From IMG/VR virus record IMGVR_UViG_3300044644_002430, positions 1 to 39,530 of that record: a stretch of 39,530 nt of DNA. One strand, written 5' to 3'. A model generated the notes under the pieces. That model was not told where the DNA came from. It searched no databases and saw only the letters and a program-made list of their open reading frames with translations. A program made the translations under genes and the position numbers. The stretch's first letter is position 1, and every line of letters begins with the position of its first letter. This stretch comes from a virus. Below are positions 6,164-38,724 of the stretch, one piece after another.

Positions 6164-7387
6164 TCAACTGTTTTTTAAGTATTTTCTTTCAGGAGATCCG
6201 TATGGCGTAAAATACACTTCGTGAAATTTCATTAAATTAGGCTCATCATCAAGCCAAAATTTTTCTGAATGTGTTCTTGCTTTTTTACAATGATCTGCAT
6301 ACACGCTTTGGTTCTTTAGTACTGTTTTTAAACAGTCAATAAATTCGTTTCCGTTTTTGTATTTTAAAGAAGCATCTTTGTATGTAACCATGTCCGGACA
6401 TACGCACGGTAAGCCTAGAGCTCCAGCCTCAATAAGTTTTATGTTTGATTTGCATCTGTTGAACGTGTTGTCTTGTAAAGCAGCAAAAGTTACTTGAGCT
6501 CCAGAGTTGGCCATAGCTTGTGGGAAATCAGGAAGAGGTACCCAATGAGTAAATTTCATTTCTCCTCTATCGATATAAGATTTTAATGGCAGAGGAAACG
6601 AACCATAAAAGTGCCATTGAAAATCTTTTCTAGTTTTAATAATGTGAGGCACTACCATTTCAAAATCATCTTGTTGGTTAACTCTATTGGCTACGTCAAC
6701 ATGAGTACCTGAAGCAAAAATAGCAACAATTGGTTTCTTTTTATTCTTATCAAATTTTTTAACAAGGTCTCCCAAATTATAATAGCGATCAAACCACCAC
6801 TTCATCAAGTAATTAGGAACTGTTGTTACATTTTTGAATCCTGTTTTGTTGATCAAATAGTCTCTAAAATAATCGCACGTAACAGTAATTTCATCCATCA
6901 TGTGCATAATATCCATGATGGAGTTGTATATGTCATCTGATACAAAAGCATCTCTATTACGATTATACAAAGGAATATCTTCTCTAAAAACTACGTCATC
7001 TACTTCGTAAATTAACTTGGTCTTAAGTTGAGTAGAAATCTCTTTCAAAAATGTTACAAATTGCTTTTGCTGAGGAGTAGCTTGTCGTTGTACTTTTACT
7101 GCTTGCACGGTTTGATAAAACCGTGGATCTAAAATCATTGCTGTGGATTCAACTATTACAGCCTTTTGATGTAAATTTAAAAGCAAGTTTGGAGCCATGC
7201 ATCTATAATACCCACAACCTCCATAATCAGCTAGATAAGTTAAAGCTCGTTTAAGTCCTTCTCCTGGTATTTCTGGGGGAGGAACATTGCGTTGCGGAGG
7301 AATATATGTTTGAGCAGGCAAACCAACGGGGAGTCCGTGTGGTGCCCCATGAACGTTCTGAATCCCCATGCGAATTGGTGTGTACAT
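6164..7387 (-). CDS. Glycosyltransferase, GT-B fold (GT4-like)
   Basis: 407 residues. The proline-rich N terminus (about 10-45) is followed by YRCMAPNLLL and KLIYEVDDVVF in the first Rossmann-like domain. The second domain holds the family pattern KLIEAGALGLPCVCPD near residue 330, which supplies the sugar-nucleotide-binding acidic residue of retaining GT-B enzymes. Similar proteins with the YRCxxP start occur in T4-like marine phages. Donor and acceptor are unknown. It sits between gp43 and gp46, outside the main glycosyltransferase cassette at 9935-15531. TTTAAATA lies 6 nt before the ATG, so it may be late-expressed. Confidence 0.82.
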   Translation of the reverse strand: MYTPIRMGIQNVHGAPHGLPVGLPAQTYIPPQRNVPPPEIPGEGLKRALTYLADYGGCGYYRCMAPNLLLNLHQKAVIVESTAMILDPRFYQTVQAVKVQRQATPQQKQFVTFLKEISTQLKTKLIYEVDDVVFREDIPLYNRNRDAFVSDDIYNSIMDIMHMMDEITVTCDYFRDYLINKTGFKNVTTVPNYLMKWWFDRYYNLGDLVKKFDKNKKKPIVAIFASGTHVDVANRVNQQDDFEMVVPHIIKTRKDFQWHFYGSFPLPLKSYIDRGEMKFTHWVPLPDFPQAMANSGAQVTFAALQDNTFNRCKSNIKLIEAGALGLPCVCPDMVTYKDASLKYKNGNEFIDCLKTVLKNQSVYADHCKKARTHSEKFWLDDEPNLMKFHEVYFTPYGSPERKYLKNS

Positions 7388-7419: not shown

Positions 7420-9216
7420 CTAGCTCAAAACTGTTGTTAGTCCGTTTCTTTTTACTACATGAATAACGTGTTCCGCCTTTGAAAGTACTTCCGGCCCTCG
7501 ATGAGTAATAATATAGCAAGCCTCGTTGTTTTCTTGAAACCTTTCTCGTAACAACCTCAAGGTTAGTAGTACTCCTCTGTCATCTAAAGACGAGTCCAAC
7601 AGTTCGTCATAAAACACAGTATTAAAATTTACATCTCCTTGTAGACGTCTAATATCTGCAAATGCGAACAGACAAGCTAAATCAATTCTTTTCCGTTCTC
7701 CTCCTGAAAAGTTAAAATAGGATTTAGCTTGAGTATTTTCATCAATGATTTCTTCATCAAAAAATTCATTAAAACAACAAAGACAATTTGCTTCTAATTT
7801 TTTTAAATAAAATGCTAAGCGAGAATTTAGTACTTTAAGAATTTTTTTGACAATAAACGATTTAATTCCCTCTTCTGATATAACAAATTTGACAGTTTCG
7901 AGTACGTTCAAATTGTTATTCAAACCGTCTACTTTTTGCTGCAACTCAGCAGTTTCAATTTTTAGAGATGCAATTTTTCCTTTAAGATCATTGTTGTGTT
8001 CTTTAGATACAATATGCATTTCTTCTTCCACGTCTTTTAAATTTGAAATCAAATGCTTAATACTGAGTTCAAAAGATTTATTATTTGATATGGTCTGATT
8101 AATGTTTCGAATGTTTTCGTTGCATATTTTTTGAGTGGATAAATGACTTGAAATGTCGTTATCTGTTTCTTGCAAAGAGTTTTTAAGTTTACAATCCAAT
8201 TTGCTTAATTTTTCAATAGCTAAATTGTGTTCAGAAATTAATTTAGAGACATGCTCTATATGCTCCTCGGAATATTGTCTTGAACACGTTGGACAAGTAT
8301 CTTTGTCTGTTTGCAATCTTTTAATTTGCTTGTTTTCAGAACTTATTTCAGCTTGAACCAGACTAATTTTTGATTGAGTATCTAATTTAATTTTATTGAG
8401 TTCTGTTAGCTTGCTATCAATTAATTTAAGTTTGTTATCGTCCTCTTGAGTGTGTAAATTTTTAGATACAATTATTTTAGATTTATTTAATTCTATGTCA
8501 GCAGTGAGAGTTGCTTTTTTTGCGCTAAGTTTGTTTAATCTTTCAGCTTTAGTATTTTCGTAATTTTCGAACTGAGTTTGATTAAAATTTAACTCGGTTT
8601 GATTTTGTTCAAATTTTGCATATGTTAACTCATACTCCTTTTTAATATTGCTGTAATCCTCTCTTGCTTTCAAAACCATTTGAGTGAACACCTCTAGCCC
8701 TAACACGCTTTCAATAAATTTACGTTTGTCTGTTTTAGGCAAAGCCATGAATGGCAGAGCGTTGTTAGCAGACATTATTACGGAATTTTGAAATACTGAC
8801 GCTGGTGTGTGAATTAAATCTTGTATTAATAAGTTGGTTTTAGCAAGTGTTGAACGAGTAATATCTTCTCCGTTTTTAAAAAGAGAACATTTTGTTGGAT
8901 TAAGCTTTCTGACTATTTTGTAAGAGTCAATAGTATTATTTGAAGTTATGTCAAACAACAACGAAACCTCACAGCGTTTTTTAGTTATACTGTTTTGTAC
9001 GTGGTCTTTAGAAATTTCTCTAATTGTTGTGCCATACAACGAATAATACAACAGTTCTGTAACTGTTGATTTGCCTGCTCCGTTTTTTGAGTCTTCCTTA
9101 TCGTGGTTTGTTCCTATAATTGCATTAACCCCTGGTTTTAAATCAATTTTAACCACATTGTCTCCAATTGATAAAAAATTTTTTCCCTCAAGAATCTTAA
9201 AGGTTATAAAACGCAT
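7420..9216 (-). CDS. 46: Recombination endonuclease ATPase subunit, gp46/SbcC/Rad50 type
   Basis: 598 residues. N-terminal Walker A is NGAGKS (45-50). Long coiled-coil arms of about 180-300 and 320-440 flank a zinc hook CPTC (308-311). The C-terminal lobe has the ABC signature SGGERKR (504-510) and Walker B VFYDE with D537 and E538. With gp47 this makes the Mre11-Rad50-like complex that resects DNA ends for recombination-dependent replication and helps degrade host DNA. In T4 genes 46 and 47 are neighbours. Here they lie about 6.3 kb apart with a glycan cassette between. A second, truncated copy of residues 96-120 lies at 9864-9938. Confidence 0.95.
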   Translation of the reverse strand: MRFITFKILEGKNFLSIGDNVVKIDLKPGVNAIIGTNHDKEDSKNGAGKSTVTELLYYSLYGTTIREISKDHVQNSITKKRCEVSLLFDITSNNTIDSYKIVRKLNPTKCSLFKNGEDITRSTLAKTNLLIQDLIHTPASVFQNSVIMSANNALPFMALPKTDKRKFIESVLGLEVFTQMVLKAREDYSNIKKEYELTYAKFEQNQTELNFNQTQFENYENTKAERLNKLSAKKATLTADIELNKSKIIVSKNLHTQEDDNKLKLIDSKLTELNKIKLDTQSKISLVQAEISSENKQIKRLQTDKDTCPTCSRQYSEEHIEHVSKLISEHNLAIEKLSKLDCKLKNSLQETDNDISSHLSTQKICNENIRNINQTISNNKSFELSIKHLISNLKDVEEEMHIVSKEHNNDLKGKIASLKIETAELQQKVDGLNNNLNVLETVKFVISEEGIKSFIVKKILKVLNSRLAFYLKKLEANCLCCFNEFFDEEIIDENTQAKSYFNFSGGERKRIDLACLFAFADIRRLQGDVNFNTVFYDELLDSSLDDRGVLLTLRLLRERFQENNEACYIITHRGPEVLSKAEHVIHVVKRNGLTTVLS

Positions 9217-9250: not shown

Positions 9251-9859
9251 CTATTTTTTAATAAATCCCCAGCAGTCTTCTTTTCCACTTGCAAACATTT
9301 GGTAATTATGTTGAGTTACAAATTCATTTACGGCATTTATTACGCCTTTCCATCCTGTATTATAATCATGTCCAGCTAAAATTCCTCCTGGTTTTACTTT
9401 TGGATACCAAGCTAAAATGTCTGCTTTTACGTTTTCGTAATCATGAGAAGCATCAATAAACACGAAATCTAAACTGTTGTTTTGATATGTATTAACTGCA
9501 TCTAAAGACGATAAACGTATGGGCTTTATAATATGTTTGACTGAATTTGTATTTGTTAAAAATAAATTATAAAGCCCATCAATTTTTGTTGTAGCGGAAT
9601 GAAAACAATTAGAATTAGCAGAAATGTGTTCTGTTGAACCTAACCAGGTATCTACGCAATCGAATTTAATATTCTTATTGGAATTGGCAATTTCTACAGC
9701 CATAAAAGACGAACTTTTACCTAGCCACGAACCAATTTCTACGAAATGAGAATTGGTTGGAAATTTATTAATAGCTGTTTTGTACATTTCTGGAAAGTTA
9801 AACCAGCCCTCAATATTATTGTAAAAATGTTCCATTAACAAGTGTTCTCGTTTAATCAT
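9251..9859 (-). CDS. Class I SAM-dependent methyltransferase
   Basis: 202 residues. HFVEIGSWLGKSSS (about 38-51) is motif I of the Rossmann-fold SAM site, FDCVDTW is motif II with the acidic ribose ligand, and LDFVFIDASHDYENVKADI is motif IV/V of the Methyltransf_24-like (cephalosporin hydroxylase/macrocin O-methyltransferase) group. PGGILAGHDY follows. Members commonly methylate sugars or small molecules, fitting the neighbouring glycosyltransferases; the substrate is not known. The start chosen is ATG 9857-9859. The ATG lies at the end of the gene 46 relic, so the 5' region of this gene was shaped by that recombination event. Confidence 0.82.
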   Translation of the reverse strand: MIKREHLLMEHFYNNIEGWFNFPEMYKTAINKFPTNSHFVEIGSWLGKSSSFMAVEIANSNKNIKFDCVDTWLGSTEHISANSNCFHSATTKIDGLYNLFLTNTNSVKHIIKPIRLSSLDAVNTYQNNSLDFVFIDASHDYENVKADILAWYPKVKPGGILAGHDYNTGWKGVINAVNEFVTQHNYQMFASGKEDCWGFIKK

Positions 9860-9863
9860 AAAC

Positions 9864-9938
9864 TTTTAATATCTTCATTGTTTTTAAATAGCTGGCACTT
9901 TGTAGGATTGAGCTTTCTGACAATTTTATATGTGTCAA
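9864..9938 (-). pseudogene. Relic of a second gene 46 (25 codons)
   Basis: In the gap between the two methyltransferase genes, the minus strand encodes DTYKIVRKLNPTKC and LFKNNEDIK in one frame. This aligns with residues 96-120 of the intact gp46 in this window (DSYKIVRKLNPTKC, LFKNGEDIT), with 20 of 25 residues identical. At the DNA level roughly three quarters of the bases match and many changes are synonymous, so it is a diverged homologue and not a recent copy. The frame is not attached to a start codon and ends at a stop at 9856-9858. It reads as scar DNA from recombination or deletion at an ancestral or foreign gene 46. Confidence 0.85.
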
Positions 9939-10516
9939 CCATTTAAATCAGAAGCAAATTTTTCTGAGGAAATTATATTCATCAACTCTTGCTTATTTTT
10001 TTCGTAGTAATAATAAGTTTTTGCAAGATCTATAGGAGCAGAGTCATATAATGTTTGAAATGGGGGTTGTTTTTGGATTACTCCACAACCACAGTCAGTA
10101 TCAACAACGCAAACACTTAATTCTGGATTATTGTACCTCAAATCAATAATTGAACGAAACACTGTTCCGTTCCAACACACTTTAATAAATTCTTCACAGT
10201 GGGGAAGACAATCATGAACTACAATTGTTCCGTTTTCATTTAATACTTTCAAAGCATTATGGATGTCCTTCGTGCTCTGTTCTTCAATGTGTAGCCCATC
10301 AACAAAAACAATGTCGAATTTTTTTGTATTTTTTGCAAAGAAATCATCTGATGTCATCTCATGCGTGAGTTGGTCGTAACACTTTTGAGGATCGACACAC
10401 TCTTTGTTATCGATAATAATCTCCTTGAAGCAATCTCCAAACTGTGTACCTATTTCTAGGTAGCTTTTATAGTTGTGTTTTTTGATTAAAGAATTAATGA
10501 TGTCGAAACGTTTCAT
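9935..10516 (-). CDS. Class I SAM-dependent methyltransferase-like protein
   Basis: 193 residues. YLEIGTQFGDCFKEI (about 19-33) is the SAM-binding motif I, KFDIVFVDGLHIEEQSTKDI is the D/H-rich motif IV, and NGTIVVHDCLPH is motif V/VI. The order VFVDGLH-(x)n-HDC is that of phage and capsule-cluster methyltransferases of the Methyltransf_24 type, related to the 9251-9859 product. The central DCGCG is unusual and could hold a metal. It overlaps the next upstream gene by 4 nt (ATGA), so it belongs to the translationally coupled cassette running from 15531 to here. Substrate unknown, probably a sugar. Confidence 0.78.
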   Translation of the reverse strand: MKRFDIINSLIKKHNYKSYLEIGTQFGDCFKEIIIDNKECVDPQKCYDQLTHEMTSDDFFAKNTKKFDIVFVDGLHIEEQSTKDIHNALKVLNENGTIVVHDCLPHCEEFIKVCWNGTVFRSIIDLRYNNPELSVCVVDTDCGCGVIQKQPPFQTLYDSAPIDLAKTYYYYEKNKQELMNIISSEKFASDLNG

Positions 10517-11367
10517 GGTGTTTTAATTTTGTTGATAAAATATTTAGCTAAAGCTTCTGTTGTGTTGTTAGTTAAAAAATGACTTTCAAACTTATCTATA
10601 AACTTATTGTAAAGGTCATCATTTTTCAAGTGCTGCGAATTAGAGTTTATTTCATTGCACAAAGATTTAGGAAAATGTGTCATTGTATTAACAGGACATT
10701 TTTCGACATCTAAAAAATAAGGAATGCATCCATTGGCTAAAATTTCGTAATGTCTCATACAATCCCATCCTGCTTTTTTAAGTGTGACTCCAAAACGCGC
10801 TTGATTGTAATCTGCATAATAATCTTTTTCGTTATTGTAAATATACGTATTTCTGTTTAACGGTGTAATAAATGAAAAAACTTTTGTTTTATTTTTGTTA
10901 AAGTTAACTTTTGGAGTCGGAAAAGCAAACGATATCGGAAACAATCGATTATGCTCAAAAGTAAGTTCTCTTTTAAAATAAAGAATACCTAGATCAAAAT
11001 TTTTATGAATGTTGGTTTCGTCCTCTCCGTCTACAGCAATTACTTGATTTTTAGGATAATATTGTAGTATCTTTTGAAGATAGTCATCACATCTCCAAAT
11101 AGAACCGTAAACAATAAAATCAAAATATCTGTTTTTTATCTTTGATGTTATATCAGTTCTATCTACTTCTAAATCAGGCAAAACTCTTGTAACAGTCATT
11201 CCTTTACCGTATAGCGTTTTTGCTATAGCTTCATCACAAGTGACATAGTTGTGTTCTTGTTTGTTATAGTCCACAACATCAGCCCCAAACATCTCTTTGA
11301 GCCCAATAAGCAAGCAATCGTTTTGGTAGTCTACATGATCTCCTTTTGTGAGGTATAATATTTTCAT
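10513..11367 (-). CDS. Glycosyltransferase-like protein of glycan cassette
   Basis: 284 residues. It starts MKILYLTKGDHVDYQND, a first Rossmann strand. The segment ARFGVTLKKAGWDCMRHYEILANGCIPYF (about 190-218) resembles the C-terminal nucleotide-sugar-binding part of exostosin or CgeB-like GT-B proteins, where RxxEIxAxGCIPxF is conserved. No N-terminal donor motif is certain. Tight 4-nt overlaps with both neighbours place it in one operon with methyltransferases and glycosyltransferases. Probable role: adds a sugar during synthesis of a phage-made glycan. Confidence in the fold is moderate and the donor and acceptor are unknown. Confidence 0.6.
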   Translation of the reverse strand: MKILYLTKGDHVDYQNDCLLIGLKEMFGADVVDYNKQEHNYVTCDEAIAKTLYGKGMTVTRVLPDLEVDRTDITSKIKNRYFDFIVYGSIWRCDDYLQKILQYYPKNQVIAVDGEDETNIHKNFDLGILYFKRELTFEHNRLFPISFAFPTPKVNFNKNKTKVFSFITPLNRNTYIYNNEKDYYADYNQARFGVTLKKAGWDCMRHYEILANGCIPYFLDVEKCPVNTMTHFPKSLCNEINSNSQHLKNDDLYNKFIDKFESHFLTNNTTEALAKYFINKIKTP

Positions 11368-12248
11368 AAAAGTTGTAAAAGTTTATTAATTCTGTTTAAA
11401 GTTGTGTGTTTTGACGAAACCGTATTAAATCCACGTTGTGCTATCTTTAATCTTTCTTGATGATTAGCAGAATAATATTGAACCTTTTCTACACAATCTT
11501 CAAAAGAATCAAAATATACTATATCCTCATTTTCTTTGAATATTAAATCAATTCTTGTGTTTGGATCTGGGCGGTCGGTCACAATCATTCTGTTGGCCAT
11601 CATGCCTTCAAATATTCGTCTCGAAATTTCTCTGTACTTGCTGTTTTGTATAACAACGTTTCCTTTCATTAAATGACGGGAGTGGTCTTCTCCCTGCAAG
11701 AAATCCACTCGAGCTTCAAACTTGTCGCCAAGAGTTTGTTTCAATTGTTTAAAAAATGGCTCTTCGATTGAACGAGTAGTCACGGCATCGAATAGAGGTT
11801 CTTGTGTAATTTTAAATTGATCTGGATCAGCAAAATATGGACACCATACAGCATTAATATTTTCAGCATTGTATCTTTCAACGCAGCGAATATCAGGTGA
11901 CAAAATTACATCAAACTCTCCGTGTTTAATTTTTGAAAAATTTAACGAAAAATTTTGAGGATCGTCTCCAGACTCAACAATCCATTTGGCTGAAGGTATA
12001 AACCTTTTTCTTAGATAAGATGACGTGAACAAACCAAAATCTAAATGGAACACTATATCCGGCACAAACTGACCGCTATTATAATCTGCTATTAGCTTTA
12101 ATAAAGAGGAGTCGTCAAATTTATCATGTACTAAAGTATTGTAAAAAACAACCTCATGTCCTAATTTCTTAAACCAATTAAAAAAACTAATAGGTATGTT
12201 CCAAACATCAGTGCTAGACGTTGGGCCTAAAATTGCTACCTTTTTCAT
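11364..12248 (-). CDS. Glycosyltransferase, CgeB-like GT-B
   Basis: 294 residues. The N terminus KKVAILGPTSSTDVWNIP begins the first Rossmann domain. KWIVESGDDPQNF and FDVILSPDIRCVERY match the mid-region of CgeB/Glyco_trans_1_2 proteins. YREISRRIFEGMMANRMIVTDR (about 205-226) carries the acidic residue and small-residue turn of the sugar-nucleotide site. VEKVQYYSANHQERLKIAQRG near the C terminus is the usual last helix. It overlaps both neighbours by 4 nt. The CgeB group takes part in spore-coat and surface glycan decoration; here it is part of the phage cassette. Donor and acceptor unknown. Confidence 0.78.
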   Translation of the reverse strand: MKKVAILGPTSSTDVWNIPISFFNWFKKLGHEVVFYNTLVHDKFDDSSLLKLIADYNSGQFVPDIVFHLDFGLFTSSYLRKRFIPSAKWIVESGDDPQNFSLNFSKIKHGEFDVILSPDIRCVERYNAENINAVWCPYFADPDQFKITQEPLFDAVTTRSIEEPFFKQLKQTLGDKFEARVDFLQGEDHSRHLMKGNVVIQNSKYREISRRIFEGMMANRMIVTDRPDPNTRIDLIFKENEDIVYFDSFEDCVEKVQYYSANHQERLKIAQRGFNTVSSKHTTLNRINKLLQLL

Positions 12249-13189
12249 TTGAAAAAGATTTGTTCAAATTTTTTCATTACTTGTTTTGGTGAAAATTGAT
12301 CTACGAGTTCTTTGTAGATACCTTTTGGGTGTGTTGGTTTTTTTAGCACCGCCAATATATCATAAAGATCTTGTTGATTTTCATACCAAATTCCTTGTTT
12401 GTTTAATAATGAAATGTGGTGTTTATCAAGTCCGTTTTTCCAGCTTATTACGGGCTTGTCATTGAAAAGAAATTCGCAAATTGCTAGTCCAAAACTTTCT
12501 CCGTGTTGTCTAGCGTGAATCATGTAGTCACACGTATTAATAAAATCTGCTTTGTTTTGTAGGTTATATGTTCCTTCAACATAAACAACATTTTGGTTTG
12601 AAGAAATAAAAGGTCTTGTATTCATGAAAAGAAAAGTAATATCATTTCTTTGTTTTAAAACTTCTTCGATTGCTTTGTAAACAAACGGTAAATCAAAGTC
12701 ATTAAAACCCCCATAACGTCCAATAACAATATTGTTTTCGGGAATATTAAGTTTTTCTTTATAATTCTTTTTTGGTTCCGGCAAACAAACAATGTGTGGA
12801 ACATATTGCTCTTCCATTCCCATCTGTTCTGCTAACCATTTCGAAACATAAGCATAAGAGTCCCCATGGACGTCTTTATTTTGAAAGACTGCGTGGATCG
12901 CATTCTTTGCACCAGAAATTACTTTTCCGTCGTTATCTCCAGCTTTAATGTAGTACACATATTCAATGCCTTTGTCTTTGACAAACTGTTCGCACTCCTC
13001 AAACTTTTCGTATAAAAACACCTCAAACTTGTTTTGAAATTTTTTGAGTGTTGTTAGTTCAGCGTTTGCATTTGATATAATATACGATTTATTACCCAAT
13101 ATTTCTTCGTTATAAAAAGCATAATCATATAAAGCAACTTCTGTGCCTCTAATGCCTAATTGATTAGAATGGAATCCTACAGTTTTCAT
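12245..13189 (-). CDS. Glycosyltransferase, GT4/GT-B family
   Basis: 314 residues. GFHSNQLGIRGTEVALYDYA (about 5-24) is the glycine-rich acceptor-side motif of GT4 enzymes. IVIGRYGGFNDFDLPFVYKA (about 154-173) starts the second Rossmann domain. HARQHGESFGLAICEFLFNDKPVI (about 225-248) contains the EX7E-like pattern: GESFGLAICEF. So it is probably a retaining sugar transferase that uses a nucleotide sugar. Genes on both sides overlap it by 4 nt. No Shine-Dalgarno sequence is seen at the ATG; coupling to the upstream stop probably provides initiation. Confidence 0.83.
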   Translation of the reverse strand: MKTVGFHSNQLGIRGTEVALYDYAFYNEEILGNKSYIISNANAELTTLKKFQNKFEVFLYEKFEECEQFVKDKGIEYVYYIKAGDNDGKVISGAKNAIHAVFQNKDVHGDSYAYVSKWLAEQMGMEEQYVPHIVCLPEPKKNYKEKLNIPENNIVIGRYGGFNDFDLPFVYKAIEEVLKQRNDITFLFMNTRPFISSNQNVVYVEGTYNLQNKADFINTCDYMIHARQHGESFGLAICEFLFNDKPVISWKNGLDKHHISLLNKQGIWYENQQDLYDILAVLKKPTHPKGIYKELVDQFSPKQVMKKFEQIFFK

Positions 13190-13935
13190 TTGTATTGTTT
13201 AAAGTGCTTGTATCCTCCTGATTTATATGGCTCGTTGTTCCACTTTGAGGCAAGTAAGTCGCCTTGCTCATTCATGTTTTTAGGAGTATATTTTAACCGA
13301 TCTTCTGCGTATTTGTTGGAATGACCCGATTGGTGTTTAACTCGAGCTCCTGTATGAACTCCGTGTAAAAGTCCGCAACGTTCTAATGACATTGCGTAGT
13401 CATTATCTTGATAAAAGAAGTAAAATTTTTCGTCTAAATAGCCAATTCTTTCAAATACTGAACGGCGACACGCAAATATGCATCCAAACATATGTAATGA
13501 AACTTCGTAACCGTGATACAATTTACTTTCTGAAGGAAGATACATAGAAGTGTGTCTGTGCCACTCTCTGTCAATTGGTGAAATTGAATGTATTTCTTGA
13601 TTGGTTTGAAATTCTTTTAATAGAGTTTGCAAACAATTTGGCTGAATTAACAAATCGTTATTCGGTCCGATGATATACTGAGCTGTGCACTCAGATAAAG
13701 CTATATTGTAAAACTTATTGTAATTAAATTGTTCGTTAGGCTTAATAAGTTTTACCTTTTCTTGTTTGTAATCCCGATCGAAGTTAGGATTTGTCTCAAC
13801 AATGTAAATTTTATTCACTAAATCATCAGCCGTATCAATATACGAATCTACGCAAGACTTAGTTGTTTGAAACGTTTGTTCGTCCACAGCAAGGGACAAA
13901 ATTATTACATCAAATTTATTATTGACAATTGACAT
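13186..13935 (-). CDS. Glycosyltransferase, GT2-like (GT-A fold)
   Basis: 249 residues. The N-terminal strand FDVIILSLAVDE and the later strand KIYIVETNPN resemble a GT-A Rossmann start. YIIGPNNDLLIQPNCLQTLL (about 86-105) occupies the place of the DxD metal site of GT2 enzymes (here NND). MFGCIFACRRSVFERIGYLDEKFYFFYQDNDYAMSLERCG contains the GYLDExFFxxxxDxD acceptor motif of rhamnosyl- and galactosyltransferase-like GT2 proteins. It overlaps the next upstream gene by 17 nt and the downstream gene by 4 nt. Inverting sugar transfer is inferred from family; donor unknown. Confidence 0.82.
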   Translation of the reverse strand: MSIVNNKFDVIILSLAVDEQTFQTTKSCVDSYIDTADDLVNKIYIVETNPNFDRDYKQEKVKLIKPNEQFNYNKFYNIALSECTAQYIIGPNNDLLIQPNCLQTLLKEFQTNQEIHSISPIDREWHRHTSMYLPSESKLYHGYEVSLHMFGCIFACRRSVFERIGYLDEKFYFFYQDNDYAMSLERCGLLHGVHTGARVKHQSGHSNKYAEDRLKYTPKNMNEQGDLLASKWNNEPYKSGGYKHFKQYK

Positions 13936-14692
13936 ATAGGTAATTTTCTATTTGTTTAATGACATCATACTGATGAAGAACGTAAGGAATATCATCGTTA
14001 ATTGATATTTGTTCTGCTATGTTAACTCTCGAGTTGGCTAAATGAGCTAAATTTGCTACTTCATTATTTTTTAAAATGTTATATCTTGGTGAATCAAAGT
14101 AGACGACTTTGTTGAGGGATGCTTGATCAATGTTTTGGTAGTTCCCGATCCGTGAAATAATTTGAGTCATATCATTGCACATTTCTTTTAATAATTCAAC
14201 GCAACTTTCTCTTCTTCCAAAGATTGTTCCTCCATTTAAAATTTGATAACGCTTGAGTAAATTAAAAATATCTTGGTTGTAGCATAACTTAACCCAAGTT
14301 GTATTTGTTTCACAATTACCAATATATTCATTTTCTGCAGTTACATAAGGCTTAGAATTGACAACCAACTCAAAAGGATTTTTCTGAAAGTACAAATCAG
14401 TAAAGTCGCACAAATACACATTTGATGCTGTACAAAAGTGTTTGGTATACAAATAAAAATAAATCACCTTTAAAGTATAAGGTGAAATAGAATTTTGGAT
14501 CTTGTATTTTTCGCTCAGTTCTTTAGAATCGATTAAATTAACGTGGTTGTCTTTTAAAAATTCAGTCAATTCTTTTGTAAGACCAGAAGCAATTACTGTA
14601 ACCGTTTTAGAAAACTTTTTTGCGCTATTTACAAAAACTTTGATGCCAGGACTTAAGTTATAACCTTGTCCATATGTAACAATCTCGTTCAT
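13919..14692 (-). CDS. Glycosyltransferase-like protein (GT-A, DUF-type)
   Basis: 257 residues. The segment ASNVYLCDFTDLYFQKNPFE (about 92-111) has the D-x-x-D form and hydrophobic flank of GT-A proteins of the nucleotide-diphospho-sugar transferase group (GT8- or GT77-like). GGTIFGRRESCVELLKEMC and NIDQASLNKVVY later in the chain are usual for these, the first being the acceptor loop and the second a conserved DQ motif. It overlaps its upstream and downstream neighbours (4 and 17 nt), so it belongs to the cassette. Precise family and substrate cannot be read from the sequence. Confidence 0.68.
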   Translation of the reverse strand: MNEIVTYGQGYNLSPGIKVFVNSAKKFSKTVTVIASGLTKELTEFLKDNHVNLIDSKELSEKYKIQNSISPYTLKVIYFYLYTKHFCTASNVYLCDFTDLYFQKNPFELVVNSKPYVTAENEYIGNCETNTTWVKLCYNQDIFNLLKRYQILNGGTIFGRRESCVELLKEMCNDMTQIISRIGNYQNIDQASLNKVVYFDSPRYNILKNNEVANLAHLANSRVNIAEQISINDDIPYVLHQYDVIKQIENYLYVNCQ

Positions 14693-15531
14693 TTGGTTTT
14701 TAATTTTTTTAAAATGTTTAATACTTGTTGCTCAGTATGAGTGGGAGGTTGATTTGGATAATGTCCGTGTTTGTTTTTGTATATTTCTCTGCCTTGCATC
14801 ACTCGCTGCATCCACTTTTCTTTGTCTTTAGCTATTGATGAATTTTCAATAGCTCCAGGAGCTTCTTCAATTAATTCATGACTATTTGCTAAATCAGCAA
14901 ACCACCAAAACGGTGGATGAAATCCTGCTTTAATAATTTGATATGTGTGATCTACGTGCTCCCAGCACTTGTCGTATTCTTCCGGAAAGTAACCAACTTG
15001 CTTAATAACTTCGTCAGTAAAAAACGAGAACATTGCAACAGTGTGTTCATACAAAGCTATTTTGCAGACTTTGTAATCTACAATAAGTTTTGGGTTTGGC
15101 TTTGTTTTTTCGTCAAGCAAGTGTCTGTTGTGTAGGTCAGGGTTGGGGATTGTTTGAACTCGATTAAAAGGAGATCCAGGCCCGTAATTAAAATGTTGAA
15201 TGCCGCTTACCTTGCAAGCTTCAACGTATTGAGCAAAAACAGTTTTATCTTTTATTACAATATCATCTTCCAAAACAAAAACATATTTGCATTGTTTATT
15301 TAACAAACGATCTAGTGCTTTGTTTTTTGATTTTGCTACACCTAAATTTGTTTTGTTGTTAATCCATTCACCTTTAGAAAGGCTAACTTCATTAACAGAA
15401 TCTCCATCATTAACTACCACTAATTCGTCGATGTCAAAATGACATTTTACTAAAGAATCTAGTAAACTCCGAAGGTAATCAATCCTATTGCAGGTAATGA
15501 TCCCAACCCCAATTTTTTCTTTATTATTCAT
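14689..15531 (-). CDS. Glycosyltransferase family 2 (GT-A fold)
   Basis: 280 residues. IGVGIITCNRIDYLRSLLDS (about 6-25) and LVVVNDGDS form the UDP-sugar site. NLGVAKSKNKALDRLL is the conserved nucleotide-contact helix, and YVFVLEDDIVI (about 83-93) carries the DxD-type metal motif (EDD). KQVGYFPEEYDKCWEHVDHTYQI has the acceptor-site acidic residues. All hallmarks of an inverting GT2 enzyme are present. Substrate unknown. It is the first gene of the cassette after gp47, overlaps the gp47 3' end by 8 nt, and so is likely co-transcribed with gp47. Confidence 0.87.
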   Translation of the reverse strand: MNNKEKIGVGIITCNRIDYLRSLLDSLVKCHFDIDELVVVNDGDSVNEVSLSKGEWINNKTNLGVAKSKNKALDRLLNKQCKYVFVLEDDIVIKDKTVFAQYVEACKVSGIQHFNYGPGSPFNRVQTIPNPDLHNRHLLDEKTKPNPKLIVDYKVCKIALYEHTVAMFSFFTDEVIKQVGYFPEEYDKCWEHVDHTYQIIKAGFHPPFWWFADLANSHELIEEAPGAIENSSIAKDKEKWMQRVMQGREIYKNKHGHYPNQPPTHTEQQVLNILKKLKTK

Positions 15532-16594
15532 GAACGGTTTGATGAATCTTATACAACTCTAAACATTTATCAAGCACTTCTTTTTTTGTTGCTCTTGTGT
15601 CAACGTGCTCAATAAACTCATGAAATGCTGTCTCAATGTCAATTGATAATTTTTTAACCTCTGCAGTATCCACTTGAGCTGTGTCTAAAATGTCGAACTC
15701 TACTCTAAATTGTAACGGATTGTATTGAGTTAATTTAGAAGTAAGCAGATCTAAAGTTAGTGTGTCTAATTTAGTATCAACATACAAACTAATTATATTG
15801 TTTTTTATGACAGAAGATATGTTTTGGTATTTCTTTTGAAGAATATCTGAGATTTTTAAACGATGGTGTTTTGGAGTAATATTGTTTGCTATAAACTCCA
15901 CATTAAAATTATCAAAGTCTATAATAGAGACACCCTTTTGTTGTTCTCTGTCGCTGAAGTCCATTTCATATGGAGAGCCAAGATACAACACATATTTGTT
16001 TTCATAATCTCTTTTTTCTCTATAATGAAAATGGCCCGATATTACTGCATTAGACAATGCCAATAAATCTGTAGAATTGTCTCCTTTATCACAAATTTTA
16101 GTAGTGTTCATTTTAAAATTCATTAATTCAAAATGTCCTACAATCATATCTACTTTTGTTAGTTCCTTTAAATCAGTTTTCCATGGACAAAAAGCCACAG
16201 TTTTATCTCCAAAAGATACAATTGTAGGTTTAGAATAAACGTGCACATTAGGCCGTTCCAAGATTTCTACTGAGTTCACTTCCACTGTTGATGAAAGAAA
16301 TGCATCATGGTTTCCGGGTATAAGATGAATATTGTATTTTCCCAATATGTCAAAAAACTTTTTAGCTACATGCAAAGTGTTGACTCCTATTTCATGTCTG
16401 TCGTGGAACACGTCTCCAGCAAAAATAATGGTATCTAAACATTGTTCTTCCATTACTTTCTTTACCCAATTCGCTAAATCAAGTGAAATATTATGCCACG
16501 TTTGGGAGTTTTGATGAACTCCTAAATGCAAATCAGAAAAAAATAAAATTTTGTTTTGTTTGGGGTTATTGATCAAAAGATTTATAAGCTCCAT
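15524..16594 (-). CDS. 47: Recombination endonuclease nuclease subunit, gp47/SbcD/Mre11 type
   Basis: 356 residues from ATG 16592-16594; an in-frame GTG two codons upstream is possible. The calcineurin-like phosphoesterase motifs are in order: FSDLHLG (I), FAGDVFHDR (II), IPGNHD (III), VGHFEL and SGHFHYR (IV and V). All metal ligands are present, so it should be an active nuclease. It pairs with gp46 for end resection in recombination-dependent replication. It follows gp55 with a small overlap (T4 also has 55 before 47) but its usual partner 46 is displaced downstream by the glycan cassette. Confidence 0.93.
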   Translation of the reverse strand: MELINLLINNPKQNKILFFSDLHLGVHQNSQTWHNISLDLANWVKKVMEEQCLDTIIFAGDVFHDRHEIGVNTLHVAKKFFDILGKYNIHLIPGNHDAFLSSTVEVNSVEILERPNVHVYSKPTIVSFGDKTVAFCPWKTDLKELTKVDMIVGHFELMNFKMNTTKICDKGDNSTDLLALSNAVISGHFHYREKRDYENKYVLYLGSPYEMDFSDREQQKGVSIIDFDNFNVEFIANNITPKHHRLKISDILQKKYQNISSVIKNNIISLYVDTKLDTLTLDLLTSKLTQYNPLQFRVEFDILDTAQVDTAEVKKLSIDIETAFHEFIEHVDTRATKKEVLDKCLELYKIHQTVHE

Positions 16595-17066
16595 CGTCAC
16601 TCATTGGGTTGTGGGTGTTTTTCCTAGAAGGTATTTGTCCACTACAAATGTGGTTTTCATACACTTCTTCTTGATACCGTTTAAGAGTTTCAAAATCTTT
16701 TTTAGATTTTTTGATACAATTTTGAAAAGCGTGATAAGCAATTTTTGTAAAATACGAAAAGGGATTGTATCCTGAATTACATTTATATCGTTTTCGTCTC
16801 AAAGCTGTCATCATTTTAATAATAGCATCTCCTTGCATTTCGGTTTTAAAACTATAAGAATAGAAATTTCTAGCTAGTCCCAAGCGAACAGCGATCATTT
16901 GGATCATTTCTGCCAACTTATCGCTTATTATTTCATTACCGTAATATTCTCGAATTAGATTTTCCATTTCTTCGGGATTTATATATACATCTTTTAACTC
17001 TTCTTTAGTTCTCCTAACTCGCTTTACGCGTGCTTTGGATATAGGTTCAATGGTTTGGCTTTTCAT
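16566..17066 (-). CDS. 55: Late-transcription sigma factor gp55
   Basis: 166 residues from ATG 17064-17066; the frame extends to 17105 only from a TTG start. An ordered block runs from LAEMIQMIAVRLGLARNFYSYSFKTEMQGDAI (about 50-81) to NPFSYFTKIAYHAFQNCIKKSKKDFE. It matches the sigma region 2-like part of T4 gp55, including the aromatic NPxxYxTxxxxxAFxxxIKK segment. gp55 replaces host sigma for late genes and recognises TATAAATA without a -35 element. Motifs of that kind occur in this window (19382, 23467, 26547, 32048), so the factor and its sites appear together. The C terminus overlaps the start of gp47 by about 29 nt. T4 also uses gp33 and gp45; neither is seen here. Confidence 0.9.
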   Translation of the reverse strand: MKSQTIEPISKARVKRVRRTKEELKDVYINPEEMENLIREYYGNEIISDKLAEMIQMIAVRLGLARNFYSYSFKTEMQGDAIIKMMTALRRKRYKCNSGYNPFSYFTKIAYHAFQNCIKKSKKDFETLKRYQEEVYENHICSGQIPSRKNTHNPMSDDGAYKSFDQ

Positions 17067-20033: not shown

Positions 20034-20452
20034 CAAAAACTTTTCCAAAGTCTAGAATTTGCGTAATAGATTGCAAAGATCCATTTCAACAAGGATTGCA
20101 AAAAGCAATAGAGTTTGCTAACAAAAATAACATTACACTTAATAGTGCAGACGGTAAGCGTTTAATTTTAGGGTTCTGTCTCAAGTATGTAGAAGAAGCT
20201 TACAAAACAACTAAGACTCAATATCCTAAAGTTCTTTGTATTTCTAAGAAAAACATTTCAACAAAACTACATTCTTTTGTTGATAGTTATTTTGATAAAA
20301 TGATGTCCTATCTGCCGCTGCCATATTGTGGCAAATATGATTTGAATTCTCCTGATTTAGAAAGCGCTGCTGAAAATAGTTTGAGCAAAAAAAATTCAAA
20401 CAAAAAATTTCAAGACTTTCTTTCTAAAACTAAACTTGGGAAGCGTCAATAA
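20030..20452 (+). CDS. Hypothetical 140-aa protein
   Basis: Not recognised. The segment FQQGLQKAIEFANKNNITLNSADGKRLILGFCLKYVEEAYK (about 19-59) looks like a compact helical domain. The C terminus is charged and low in complexity (NSLSKKNSNKKFQDFLSKTKLGKRQ). It overlaps the GIY-YIG gene by 4 nt (ATGA) and shares the late transcript from 19382. It ends 23 nt inside the convergent kinase-like gene (20430). A small packaging or head protein is conceivable by position; nothing in the sequence proves it. Confidence 0.65.
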   Translation: MTKTFPKSRICVIDCKDPFQQGLQKAIEFANKNNITLNSADGKRLILGFCLKYVEEAYKTTKTQYPKVLCISKKNISTKLHSFVDSYFDKMMSYLPLPYCGKYDLNSPDLESAAENSLSKKNSNKKFQDFLSKTKLGKRQ

Positions 20453-21074
20453 GAGAACCATCCTCTTCTCCAAAGCAATTTCCATTTTCTTTAATGTAAA
20501 GCTTCATTTGAGGAATACGCATATCCGGAGGACCTTCTAAACGAATGACTGCTGGACAATCCTCTGAAGGAAAGAAAGCTTTTGTGTTTTTTTCATATGA
20601 ACTAACCAATGAATCAAAAATGTTATCAATTTCTTCTCTAAACGTTTCGTCTGTTTCTCTTCCTTCTCTTGGAGTAATAGGAATTTCTTTTCGAGCGGGA
20701 ATATAAAAAACGAGATCAATGTGCTTTAAAGAAAGAGCAGCAATATCTTTACAATTCATTATAAATTCTGAAGTAAATCCTTCAGTTCCTTTTGCGTAGT
20801 GCCAAAGTGTATAAGCAATATTATCCACTGGACATCTATCAAAAATAACGTGCTTATCATCTGAAGTGCTTGCAAGCTGAACTTCATCAACCAACGCGTT
20901 AAGAATTGCTCTTTGAGACTCTTTGTCTCCTTGCATATTAAGATTAAGGTTTTTTTCCTTAATGATGTCCCTATAAGTTTTTTCAGGCCTTTTATACATT
21001 GGCCATTCTTTAATGAATTGATTAACTAAAGTAGATTTACCTACACTGTGAGCTCCAATTAAAGCAATTTTCAT
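20430..21074 (-). CDS. P-loop NTPase, nucleotide/nucleoside kinase-like (AAA_28)
   Basis: 214 residues. Walker A is GAHSVGKST (7-15). FDRCPVDNIAYTLW (about 78-91) is the DR-type LID/substrate region seen in NadR- and deoxynucleoside-kinase-like P-loop proteins. VFYIPARKEIPITPREGRETDETFREEID (about 128-156) supplies basic lid residues. The likely activity is phosphorylation of a nucleoside, nucleotide or cofactor with ATP; the acceptor is unknown. It lies upstream of a small gap from QueE/QueD on the same strand, so a role in modified-nucleotide supply is possible. Confidence 0.78.
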   Translation of the reverse strand: MKIALIGAHSVGKSTLVNQFIKEWPMYKRPEKTYRDIIKEKNLNLNMQGDKESQRAILNALVDEVQLASTSDDKHVIFDRCPVDNIAYTLWHYAKGTEGFTSEFIMNCKDIAALSLKHIDLVFYIPARKEIPITPREGRETDETFREEIDNIFDSLVSSYEKNTKAFFPSEDCPAVIRLEGPPDMRIPQMKLYIKENGNCFGEEDGSLIDASQV

Positions 21075-21104
21075 TATGTTTATTTAGAGTCGGTTTGAAT
21101 TAAA

Positions 21105-21863
21105 TCAAACCTTTAAAGCTTTATCCCAGACCAGGAGATGCAAACGAGGACTAAAATTAACATGCATTGCTTTAGCGTATTCGACTACAGCTTGGGCTTT
21201 TTCGATGTGTTCTTGTCTAGATCCACAACAAGGCATGAACCAAACTCGTTGAAGAGGTACGTTAACCCCTTCATAATCATCTACATATTTTCTCCAAATT
21301 TCCTCAATATCTCTGTCAGAATTAATAACAAACTTGAAACCGGAGTTATGATCTACATGCCATCTCAACACATCTGGCTTGTAAGTCTTTTCTTCAGGGT
21401 CTCCGTTAGTCGTTAGTTTAGGAGATGTAGTAAAAGTAGCACAAAAATCTGTTACCCAACGTTCATCAGGAATAAGAGTAGCATTTGTTTCAAAATCAAT
21501 TCTTGGATTAAACTGATAACGCTCATTAAAAGCTTCCATGAATTTGAGAAGCTGTTTCTGTTGAATAAAAGGTTCTCCTCCAGTCAATTTAAATATAGCC
21601 CGATTACGAAGATGTTCAATATAATTCTTTTCTTCCATTAATTCAAAAATTTCCTCGAATGTCATTTTGTTCTTAACGGACCAAGAAATAAACGAATCAC
21701 ATCCATTAGGACTATCAGCAGAAGCGAACCCTTTGCAAGTCAAATTGCACATCGACATACGCATGAATACAGAAGGCTGTCCTACATATTCTCCTTCTCC
21801 TTCTACGGTATAAAAAACTTTATCGTCAGACAAAAACAGAGTTTCAGTATTAATATCAATCAT
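21105..21863 (-). CDS. queE: 7-carboxy-7-deazaguanine synthase QueE (radical SAM)
   Basis: 252 residues. The start YTVEGEGEYVGQPSVFMRMS is the QueE signature (xxQGEGxxxGxPxxFxR). The iron-sulfur cysteines are C39, C43 and C55, a CX3CX11C spacing wider than the usual radical SAM CX3CX2C because of a GFASADSPNG insert. LTGGEP (93-98) is the SAM-binding GGE motif. It converts 6-carboxytetrahydropterin to 7-carboxy-7-deazaguanine. That is the step after QueD, which lies next to it. The pathway leads to preQ0 and then to queuosine in tRNA or to 7-deazaguanine in phage DNA. No QueC, FolE or Dpd gene is in the window. Confidence 0.9.
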   Translation of the reverse strand: MIDINTETLFLSDDKVFYTVEGEGEYVGQPSVFMRMSMCNLTCKGFASADSPNGCDSFISWSVKNKMTFEEIFELMEEKNYIEHLRNRAIFKLTGGEPFIQQKQLLKFMEAFNERYQFNPRIDFETNATLIPDERWVTDFCATFTTSPKLTTNGDPEEKTYKPDVLRWHVDHNSGFKFVINSDRDIEEIWRKYVDDYEGVNVPLQRVWFMPCCGSRQEHIEKAQAVVEYAKAMHVNFSPRLHLLVWDKALKV

Positions 21864-21868
21864 AAATT

Positions 21869-22303
21869 TTATTCAGTATAAATTGCGCTGTTCAGTTCAT
21901 GCTCCCAAACTTCAACTTTAATGACCTTGCATCGGTTATCAGTTTGTTTTTTAATATGTTCATTTGCTTTTCTGAAGCACCATTCTGCAGTCTTTTCAAT
22001 GCCAACATCTCCCATAATTCGCAGATCACAACCTCCAGCTTCATGTAGCTGCCCAAAGAGCTTTAACAAAGGATCATCCACAGCAATGCACAAAGTGTGA
22101 TCGAATTGTTGTTGAAGTTCTTGCTTGAGGTCTTTGAGTCCTCCAAAATTAACAACCCAATTGCGTTCGTCTAATTCTCCTTCAAACCAAAATTTAGCTT
22201 TTAATTGATAACCGTGAACTTTGCAGCAGTGGGTATCTGTTGCTCTCCATTGTCTGAAAGCACAAGATCCTAACTCGATTATCTTTGTGGAAATATAACT
22301 CAT
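21869..22303 (-). CDS. queD: QueD-like 6-carboxytetrahydropterin synthase, divergent
   Basis: 144 residues. The catalytic cysteine region reads CCKVHGY: C26-x3-H30 fits the C-x3-H-G-H of QueD, but the third zinc histidine is Tyr32. The N-terminal AAH motif is CAFRQW, so the first zinc ligand is also not in place. FDH (67-69) and VWE near 134 match the catalytic D-H and E. The FRQW/HGY form recurs in phage PTPS-like proteins by recollection, so it may be a phage subfamily with altered metal binding. It makes the QueE substrate from dihydroneopterin triphosphate if active. It overlaps the upstream 91-aa gene by 4 nt and lies 5 nt from queE. Confidence 0.82.
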   Translation of the reverse strand: MSYISTKIIELGSCAFRQWRATDTHCCKVHGYQLKAKFWFEGELDERNWVVNFGGLKDLKQELQQQFDHTLCIAVDDPLLKLFGQLHEAGGCDLRIMGDVGIEKTAEWCFRKANEHIKKQTDNRCKVIKVEVWEHELNSAIYTE

Positions 22304-34100: not shown

Positions 34101-34247
34101 TTATGCCCATCCAATAAAATTACTATCCTTTTTCTCTTTGGACTGTTCAACAGGTTTTTTCTTTTCTTGCTTTTCTTTTTTTTGCTGCTCTTTTTTAAAA
34201 TGATCTTTAAATGGCAGGTGTACAGAAGTTGTTTTTTCTACTTTCAT
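34101..34247 (-). CDS. 48-aa lysine/glutamine-rich protein
   Basis: A short frame from ATG 34245-34247: MKVEKTTSVHLPFKDHFKK, then a K/E/Q repeat (KEQQKKEKQEKKKP), then a conserved-looking end DSNFIGWA. The strong charge bias and fixed start suggest a real gene and argue against the longer reading (34211) of the divergent GT90. Function unknown. Confidence 0.5.
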   Translation of the reverse strand: MKVEKTTSVHLPFKDHFKKEQQKKEKQEKKKPVEQSKEKKDSNFIGWA

Positions 34248-34257
34248 GTAGTTTGTG

Positions 34258-34274
34258 TTGTTATATTATAACAA
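34258..34274. promoter_or_regulatory. 17-nt palindrome between divergent genes
   Basis: TTGTTATA-T-TATAACAA is a perfect inverted repeat with one central base. It lies in the 47-nt gap between the 34247 start (minus) and the 34295 start (plus). It contains TATAAT on the minus strand and so could be an operator over a bidirectional promoter. Confidence 0.35.
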
Positions 34275-34294
34275 ACTTAGTAAATAATCAACAC

Positions 34295-35326
34295 ATGGAT
34301 TATGATCAAAAACAATGGGTGGCTCAAATTTTGTTTGAACATAATTATGATCTATCATTTAACGTCAAGTACCCTGCTTCTAGAGTAGATGTTAAATCAA
34401 TTAATGGCCATCTTTGGTCAGTTAGAGGAGCTAGAAATGGAATGAGCTCTACTACAAGACAAAATTCTACACTTGCTTTATTCAAGCAGGCATATGAATT
34501 ATCAACAAAACCTAATTTTGAATGTGTTTTTTCTACGGAAGATGTCCCGAGAACAACATTTTTAAAACCTTACTTTTGCTACTCTACACATTCTAAGACT
34601 CCGGATGACTATTCAAAAGTAATTCCTGACTACACGTTTGATTCAATGAACCTTAATCGACGTTACGAACTCAATGAAATACAATACGATTCAAGTTATG
34701 TTAAATTAATTGATAATATAATTAAAGCGGGCAATGAACCTCCTTTAACAGATAAAGCTGGGTGGTGTGGTAATTTAGGAGTATGGGATAGAGTTCGAAT
34801 GGTAGAGTTACACAAAACTTTTCCTTTATGCAATTTAGCTGAAATTATACAAATGTCTTGGGAAGTTAAAGATCCTAATTTCCCAAGTATGCCTAAAAAT
34901 TTTATGACCATTCCTGATCAAGTTCTCCGTTGGAGATATTTGATCGACATTCGAGGAAATGGATGGTCCGATAGAGTTAAATGTTTTTATTTTTCTAACA
35001 GATTAATGTTTAGAATTATTAGACCGCATAACGAATTTTATGACAAAAATTTAATTCCTTGGGTACATTATGTACCCGTTCAACACGTCGATCGGCTAGC
35101 AGAAACTATTACTCAAGTAAAGGGTGATCTCGTAATGGAGAACGAAATTAAAGCAAATGCTTTAAAATTTGCCAATGAAAATTTATTGCAAAACCATGCA
35201 ATAGAATATTTTCGAAAAATAATTGATGAAACAAATTGGGCTGCAGAAGCAGCTAGCTATAAGCAATTGCACGTGACTGTTCCAGACAATTTAAACTTAC
35301 TCGGATTTGATGTTGAATTTTTATAG
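34295..35326 (+). CDS. Glycosyltransferase family 90 (CAP10-like)
   Basis: 343 residues from ATG 34295; an upstream ATG at 34211 would add a hydrophobic stretch but overlaps the 34101-34247 gene. The region RWRYLIDIRGNGWSDRVKCF then SNRLMFRIIRPHNEFYD and WVHYVPV (about 225-272) is the signature of GT90/CAP10 proteins, which add xylose, glucose or similar sugars to O-linked or LPS acceptors. It stands alone on the plus strand inside the tRNA cluster. The stop at 35324-35326 is 1 nt before the CCA end of the next tRNA. Role in host surface or virion modification is inferred. Confidence 0.78.
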   Translation: MDYDQKQWVAQILFEHNYDLSFNVKYPASRVDVKSINGHLWSVRGARNGMSSTTRQNSTLALFKQAYELSTKPNFECVFSTEDVPRTTFLKPYFCYSTHSKTPDDYSKVIPDYTFDSMNLNRRYELNEIQYDSSYVKLIDNIIKAGNEPPLTDKAGWCGNLGVWDRVRMVELHKTFPLCNLAEIIQMSWEVKDPNFPSMPKNFMTIPDQVLRWRYLIDIRGNGWSDRVKCFYFSNRLMFRIIRPHNEFYDKNLIPWVHYVPVQHVDRLAETITQVKGDLVMENEIKANALKFANENLLQNHAIEYFRKIIDETNWAAEAASYKQLHVTVPDNLNLLGFDVEFL

Positions 35327-37290: not shown

Positions 37291-38724
37291 TTAATTAATA
37301 TTCGTTTTATACATATCCTGCCAACCGACTATGTCGTTCGTGTCATCAAGAAGAGGCTGGTTTTTAATATTCAAACTTGTGTTTAACAATACCGGTACTC
37401 CTGTTCTGTTGTTCCATTCTGAAAGCAAATTATATAAACCTTCATGTTGAGTTTTATTAACGGTCTGTACTCTTGATGTTCCATCGTAGTGAACAACTGA
37501 AGGAATCTTGTCAGGCTTTGTACACTTCACAGCATACTGCATATAAGGAGATGTAAAATTCATATCAAACCATTCATTAGCATACTCTTCTAAAACAACA
37601 GGAGCAAATGGTCTAAATTTTTCTCTTTGCTTTATTTCATTTACTTTATCTTTTATGTTTGGATCTCTGGGGTCCGCTAAAATGCTTCTGTTTCCTAATG
37701 CTCTTGGACCAAATTCTGAACGCCCGCTTGCAACAGCAGCAACTTTATTTTGTTCCAAATTGAACAAGATGTTTTGTATTGGATATTCAACGTTAATGTT
37801 ACTTCCTAGATACGGACTTATCCAATTAACGTGTTTGCCGTAATAAGCAGCAGCTGCTCCAAGACTACTTCCTGCATCTCCTGGATTAGGCATTATCCAA
37901 ACATCATCAAACAAATCCCACAACAAAGTGTTGGCTGAACAATTTAAAGCACATCCTCCCATAAAAACTAACTTTCTCTTATTAGTTCTTTTTTTAGCCA
38001 TTGTCATCAATTCGATTAAACGTCTTTGATAAACTTCCTGGACAGCTGCAGCAATATCAAATTTGTGTTGTTCATCTTTAATTGTTCCCCAATCTGTTAT
38101 ACCTTTGTGAAAATTGTATCGTTGCTCGTCATAATGAGGAAAGTATGAATTGACTTCTGTAAAGTGAATTTTTGGGTTTCCAAATGCAGCCATTCCCATT
38201 AAAATGTATTCTTCTTTGTTCGGCTCGAGTCCAATTAACTGCGTAAACGCACTATAAAATAATCCAAAACTTTTAGGATAATTTTGGGTGTATACTTTTT
38301 TTATTCGATTCCCTTCCCCTGTCCAAATGCTTGTTGTATTAAATTCTCCAATTGAATCAATTACAACAATAACCGCGTCATCAAACTTGCTTGTATAATA
38401 ACCAGCTGCAGCATGCGAATAATGGTGTCCAAAGTTGATAACAGGACAATCTCCTAATACCGCATTGTTTTTGTAAAACGGCTTGATTGGAGGCTTTCCT
38501 CCTTTGATTAAAACTCTAAGATTTTTTAACAAAGGACTTTCGTAATAAGATATAACATCCGGAGTTCCATACTCTAAAGCGTTTTGTATTATTCGCTCGT
38601 TTAAAGACCACTCATTTTTTATCTTACTATACCGCTCAGCATGAGCAGCAAATAATATGTTTCCGTCTTCTATTACAGAAAGTCCGGCATCGTGTGTAGT
38701 CTCATTAATTCCAAAAATTATCAT
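37291..38724 (-). CDS. NodU/CmcH-family O-carbamoyltransferase
   Basis: 477 residues. The N-terminal Kae1-like domain starts MIIFGINETTHDAGLSVIEDG with AAHAERYSKIKNE. NFGHHYSHAAAGYY (about 97-110) holds the catalytic and metal histidines. FMGGCALNCSANT (about 253-265) is the ATP-site glycine motif, and the C-terminal lobe has SEFGPRALGNRSILADPRD. The family forms carbamoyl-adenylate from carbamoyl phosphate and ATP and moves the carbamoyl to a hydroxyl of a sugar or antibiotic. T4-like cyanophages carry similar genes. Its start overlaps the SGNH hydrolase stop by 4 nt, so the two act together, probably on a glycan or nucleoside. Confidence 0.88.
   Translation of the reverse strand: MIIFGINETTHDAGLSVIEDGNILFAAHAERYSKIKNEWSLNERIIQNALEYGTPDVISYYESPLLKNLRVLIKGGKPPIKPFYKNNAVLGDCPVINFGHHYSHAAAGYYTSKFDDAVIVVIDSIGEFNTTSIWTGEGNRIKKVYTQNYPKSFGLFYSAFTQLIGLEPNKEEYILMGMAAFGNPKIHFTEVNSYFPHYDEQRYNFHKGITDWGTIKDEQHKFDIAAAVQEVYQRRLIELMTMAKKRTNKRKLVFMGGCALNCSANTLLWDLFDDVWIMPNPGDAGSSLGAAAAYYGKHVNWISPYLGSNINVEYPIQNILFNLEQNKVAAVASGRSEFGPRALGNRSILADPRDPNIKDKVNEIKQREKFRPFAPVVLEEYANEWFDMNFTSPYMQYAVKCTKPDKIPSVVHYDGTSRVQTVNKTQHEGLYNLLSEWNNRTGVPVLLNTSLNIKNQPLLDDTNDIVGWQDMYKTNIN

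Follow-up and report, generated by a model that had tools for sequence, protein, structure and literature searches.

Chlorovirus PBCV-1 encodes soluble glycosyltransferases and a methyltransferase, which assemble a methylated oligosaccharide on its capsid protein within the cytosol. Bacterial capsule and O-antigen loci have conserved ends and a variable middle, and their cassettes are exchanged through recombination in the flanks. Gtr-type serotype conversion uses a membrane flippase and a polyprenyl-phosphate glycosyltransferase encoded beside a specific glycosyltransferase. The alpha- and beta-glucosyltransferases of T4 act on hydroxymethylcytosine, and diverse phage glycosyltransferases reportedly modify DNA in T4 and in the clusters that Pyle et al. 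2024 described from metaviromes, some of them making di- and trisaccharides. Virion glycosylation has been described for the mycobacteriophages Che8, Corndog, and Myrna, according to the account of Freeman et al. 2023 given in PMC12363180. The glycosyltransferases of pelagimyophages and cyanomyophages are located mostly in the host recognition cluster, from VrlC to gp14, or dispersed in groups of two or three (PMC7029224), and Megavirinae have clade-specific sugar gene sets that were proposed to serve in virion fibril glycosylation (PMC10117803).

The locus described here is present in a 39.5-kb virus record that was analyzed over its whole length (the window), a fragment of a phage genome with T4-type replication genes. 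The genes gp46, gp47, gp43, gp55, uvsW, and uvsX were identified, and 12 tRNAs and a tmRNA are also encoded. The DNA polymerase (gp43) has at most ~33% identity to those of isolates, with Pelagibacter and Prochlorococcus phages as the top matches, and gp46 is ~31% identical to that of the freshwater cyanophage S-CRM01. At 20430-22303 on the minus strand lie the genes for QueD and QueE and one for a kinase, which PHROG labels as a thymidylate kinase. Clade 1 of the uncultivated Far-T4 group has queuosine genes (PMC4360716), so the presence of QueD and QueE fits a placement in that group, and the sequence is consistent with an uncultivated, Far-T4-like freshwater phage of the T4 superfamily. The phage tmRNA (36675-37112, minus strand; Rfam, 142 bits) lies beside the cluster of 12 tRNAs, and its predicted tag is unusually long and ends in DEYELAA. 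A GT90-family-like glycosyltransferase ORF is encoded on the other strand within the tRNA cluster (34211-35326, plus strand; Pfam, 6e-16), and at 37291-39509 (minus strand) a NodU/Nol-like carbamoyltransferase adjoins an SGNH/GDSL-like ORF, possibly a further sugar-modifying pair.

The eight genes that a sequence-only reading of this DNA had reported at 9251-15531 are all present as open reading frames on the minus strand. Upstream is gp47, the SbcD-like nuclease subunit (15524..16600, minus; Metallophos Pfam matches; gene order as in T4 and S-CRM01), and downstream is gp46, the SbcC-like subunit (7420..9216, minus; phrog_77, 7e-90). The two genes had been called adjacent in T4, which is not strictly so, since the small ORFs 46.1 and 46.2 intervene there. 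The order of transcription is gp47, GT2a, GTA8, GT2b, GT4, CGEB, EXO, MT2, a relic of gp46, MT1, gp46, GTB_a, and gp43. A tight overlapping order is seen for seven of the eight island genes, which overlap head to tail, but MT1 is separated by a gap of 75 nt that contains the relic. The T4 late-promoter motif TATAAATA occurs four times in the window, which is the level expected by chance, and is not found in the island; matches in a scan for sigma-70-type promoters were likewise not above chance.

Of the six genes considered glycosyltransferase-like (all on the minus strand), GT2a, GT2b, and CGEB are firmly assigned, GT4 and GTA8 moderately, and EXO weakly. GT2a, the first gene of the island (14689..15531), and GT2b (13186..13935) are GT2-family enzymes (Glycos_transf_2, 1e-7 each), and GT2a has a conserved EDD at residue 88. 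CGEB (11364..12248) is a CgeB-like glycosyltransferase (Glyco_trans_1_2, 1e-18). The GT4-like GT-B enzyme (12245..13189) has a weak Pfam match (0.0015) and an E-x7-E motif at residue 231, while the putative GT-A glycosyltransferase GTA8 (13919..14692) has a weak match to Nucleotid_trans (0.013), a PHROG glycosyltransferase match (2e-6), and a conserved DQAxxN motif. EXO (10513..11367) is a putative glycosyltransferase whose earlier description as exostosin-like is weakly supported. Searches of Pfam (including PF03016), NCBIfam, and PDB sequences yielded no match for it, its structure prediction is poor (pLDDT 52.6), and hhalign probabilities are 12-13% against the Exostosin_GT47-matching families of sister islands and 35% against a third family. 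The EXO family extends to bacteria, among them SAR11, Bacteroidetes, and Acidobacteria. Distant T4-like phages often have a methyltransferase gene behind EXO, suggesting that sugar transfer is followed by methylation.

MT2 (9935..10516, minus) and MT1 (9251..9859, minus) are the two class I SAM methyltransferases previously proposed (Methyltransf_24, 4e-9 and 3e-20, respectively), and MT1 has weak similarity to TylF. The PHROG label "DNA methyltransferase" was rejected for both, as they are without the motif [DNS]PP[YFW]. Just beyond gp46, the expected GT-B enzyme is indeed encoded: GTB_a (6164..7387, minus) is identified as a GT4-type glycosyltransferase, near BshA/MshA, by Pfam, PHROG, and a confidently predicted fold (pLDDT 84), and is a core gene that occurs as a single-copy neighbor of gp46 in all nine records searched. 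Sequence searches of EXO, GTA8, and GTB_a against solved structures returned nothing useful. Transmembrane-like hydropathy was found in 18 of 545 island ORFs and in none of the window cassette; the island proteins are almost all soluble, and no genes for a flippase, polymerase, polyprenyl-phosphate transferase, or export were seen in the island.

Relatives of GT2a were identified at 70 viral loci, where GT2a is the first island gene, and the genes downstream of it belong to ~120 different clusters. When 20 cluster representatives were scanned with profiles, most matched glycosyltransferase families (including GT2, GT7C, exostosin, FUT8-like, and GT11-like); one matched a nucleotide-sugar epimerase/dehydratase and one a DegT aminotransferase. 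The lineage of the window shares the order GT2a-GTA8-GT2b-(variable)-EXO-MT2 with contigs L002, L003, L004, and L073, and a second search added L146, L148, and L155. The identical order in many other contigs indicates that this arrangement is not due to chance. A second lineage, with gp46 and gp47 ~39% identical, has GT2a-GTA8-GT2b-CGEB-EXO, again between gp47 and gp46. Surveying the 46-47 interval in relatives, as had been suggested, thus revealed a gene set that related phages keep. This supports the proposed compact glycan-building set, which in the window is an operon-like run of six glycosyltransferase and two methyltransferase genes, and the lack of conservation that had been named as a refutation is not borne out. 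A contig binned as bacterial (L115, from a Winogradskyella MAG) is phage-like and contains GT4-CGEB-GT-EXO-MT2 in the same order, with ~36-49% identity to the island genes.

Soluble viral glycosyltransferases accompanied by a methyltransferase are a feature common to the island and PBCV-1, although PBCV-1 is a eukaryotic algal virus. Megavirinae also resemble the island in having clade-specific glycan gene sets, but they are giant viruses of eukaryotes that encode the synthesis of their own sugar nucleotides. Like the island, the mycobacteriophages Che8, Corndog, and Myrna have phage-encoded glycosyltransferases, but few of them; homologs of GT2a are gp234 of Myrna (69 bits), similar at the level of the family, and gp250 of I3. 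The virion proteins of Myrna are reportedly glycosylated (PMC12363180), and gp234 may be the enzyme responsible. Elimination of the other targets, together with the parallels to PBCV-1 and the mycobacteriophages, makes a virion protein the best, though unproven, acceptor. Compared to S-CRM01 gp23, the gp23 proteins of two relatives (G001, at 106092, and G002, at 27859) have extra S/T/G-rich loops, which are possible acceptors without any tie to the island. However, the location of the island in the replication region would also suit modification of DNA or of the host surface. A modular, exchanged glycan locus that includes a virion-protein acceptor has, in our estimate, slightly less than an even chance of being correct as a whole.

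The virion, a DNA base, and the host had all been named as targets, and all three are retained here, with the DNA base weakened. A modified base might carry an oligosaccharide made by these enzymes, as a defense against restriction or CRISPR nucleases. The gene order is suggestive in this respect: in T4, alpha-gt adjoins 47 and beta-gt is near 43, and here the island lies between 47 and 46 and GTB_a between 46 and 43. In addition, the nearby QueD and QueE, together with QueC in five of the related records searched, keep a 7-deazaguanine base in consideration. However, nine records were searched, including two ~200-kb contigs covered in full (the window itself is a fragment), and none contained the thymidylate synthase/hydroxymethylase family (PF00303), a C5-cytosine methyltransferase (PF00145), or TGT (PF01702), although a divergent DpdA may escape the last model; ThyX is present in two. 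This absence weakens a DNA-base target and sets the island's relatives apart from DNA hypermodification clusters with known base-hydroxylation enzymes. Further, T4 gp42, alpha-gt, and beta-gt had no match in the two ~200-kb contigs, the cassette profiles had no match to alpha- or beta-gt, the best fold matches of GTB_a are generic GT4 enzymes, and neither methyltransferase has the DNA-methyltransferase motif. We consider DNA modification unlikely.

A second alternative is that the phage alters the LPS or O-chain of its host during infection and thereby stops superinfection, as has been proposed for pelagimyophage glycosyltransferases (PMC7029224). The occurrence of the EXO family in bacteria, with the SAR11 relatives adjoining nucleotide-sugar genes, is consistent with this. 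Capsule and O-antigen loci resemble the island in their conserved ends, variable middle, and swapped cassettes, but differ in that no flippase, polymerase, or export genes were seen in the island; the flippase and polyprenyl-phosphate glycosyltransferase of Gtr-type conversion were not seen there either. The island proteins of the window are without transmembrane segments, which argues against this role, although a complete O-antigen pathway in the host could still use soluble glycosyltransferases. It has also been argued that modifying the O-antigen completely in the course of a lytic infection would probably be futile (PMC11990801), and alteration of the host surface seems doubtful.

A key feature absent from the sequence-only reading is modular exchange of the island between phages, with a molecular scar. 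A block of 4.75 kb (about 9935..14690, minus strand) matches L004 at mostly 94-99% identity, falling to 84-89% within the GT4 gene, whereas its flanks have mostly 60-80% identity. The left edge coincides with the start-stop overlap of GT2a and GTA8. At the right edge is the scar, a relic of a foreign gp46 (9863..9938, minus), in which 75 of 76 nt are those of L004 gp46 codons ~96-121, joined to the end of MT2 at a TTGA microhomology common to both sequences. The relic is 98.7% identical to L004 gp46 and 79% identical to the window's own gp46, which points to an L004-like donor. An apparent 2.5-kb gp46 match in contig L072, considered as an intron, was rejected, as it consists of the relic plus gp46.

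Comparison of lineages A and B provides evidence of exchange that is independent of the L004 block. Core genes have 73-81% identity within lineage A and 38-51% between A and B, whereas identity falls only from 73 to 64% for GT2a, 76 to 62% for GT2b, 74 to 64% for EXO, 70 to 53% for GTA8, and 59 to 47% for CGEB. A slower clock of the island genes does not explain this, since both gene sets evolve at similar rates within A. The island has thus been exchanged between phages. An assembly chimera could also produce the L004 identity, and an exact search of other viral contigs found no match to the GT2a/GTA8 junction; however, the MT2/relic junction is present at 100% in L072, the reading frames are intact, and the A/B comparison indicates exchange without the L004 block, making a chimera highly improbable.

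The 46-47 interval had been regarded as a site known to tolerate insertions. It does house the island in the window and its relatives, but it is not special: in a third arrangement (L010, L035, L153, and L209), the island lies behind queE-kinase, and in G002, a ~199-kb relative, gp47 and gp46 are directly adjacent. The interval is therefore one of at least two homes. Pelagimyophages and cyanomyophages are likewise aquatic members of the T4 superfamily with many glycosyltransferases in variable regions, but differ from the window phage, in which a conserved-start island is found between gp47 and gp46 or, in relatives, behind queE. The enzymes might instead glycosylate queuosine or some other modification of tRNA or RNA, in connection with QueD/QueE and the phage tRNA-Asn/Tyr. 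This would fit the position directly behind queE-kinase, but six or more glycosyltransferases far exceed this need, no TGT was found in the nine records, and the Que genes of the window are ~5 kb from the island with replication genes between; this reading is very improbable.

What appears to be new is a combinatorial island headed by GT2a, found at two sites, with the L004 block and its gp46 relic and the contrast in identity between lineages A and B. That it is a modular, exchanged glycan locus is very probable. The sequences themselves show the gene content, synteny, exchange, scar, and both sites, whereas we infer the sugar chemistry, order of action, and acceptor. Soluble glycosyltransferases would add sugars stepwise in the cytosol from host nucleotide-sugars, with GT2a acting first, followed by GTA8, GT2b, GT4, CGEB, and EXO; the core enzyme GTB_a probably joins them. 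MT2 and MT1 would then O-methylate sugar hydroxyls, and the acceptor would most likely be a virion protein, resulting in a particle with a short methylated glycan. GT2a keeps its place at the head of the island while the genes downstream are replaced, reordered, and relocated; these swaps may occur when T4-like phages co-infect a cell and undergo homologous and microhomology recombination.

More tentatively, freshwater phages of the T4 superfamily may have "glycotypes." The virion-glycan locus that specifies them would recombine around a constant first gene, GT2a, and have GTB_a as its core partner, and some reader of the phage surface (host receptors, grazers, or competing phages) would drive its serotype-like variation. 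If true, lytic phages would diversify a glycan coat by locus swapping, as bacteria do their capsules, which would help explain the abundance of unassigned glycosyltransferases in aquatic T4-like phages. The invariant GT2a and the core GTB_a are two concrete enzymes with which the acceptor may be traced.
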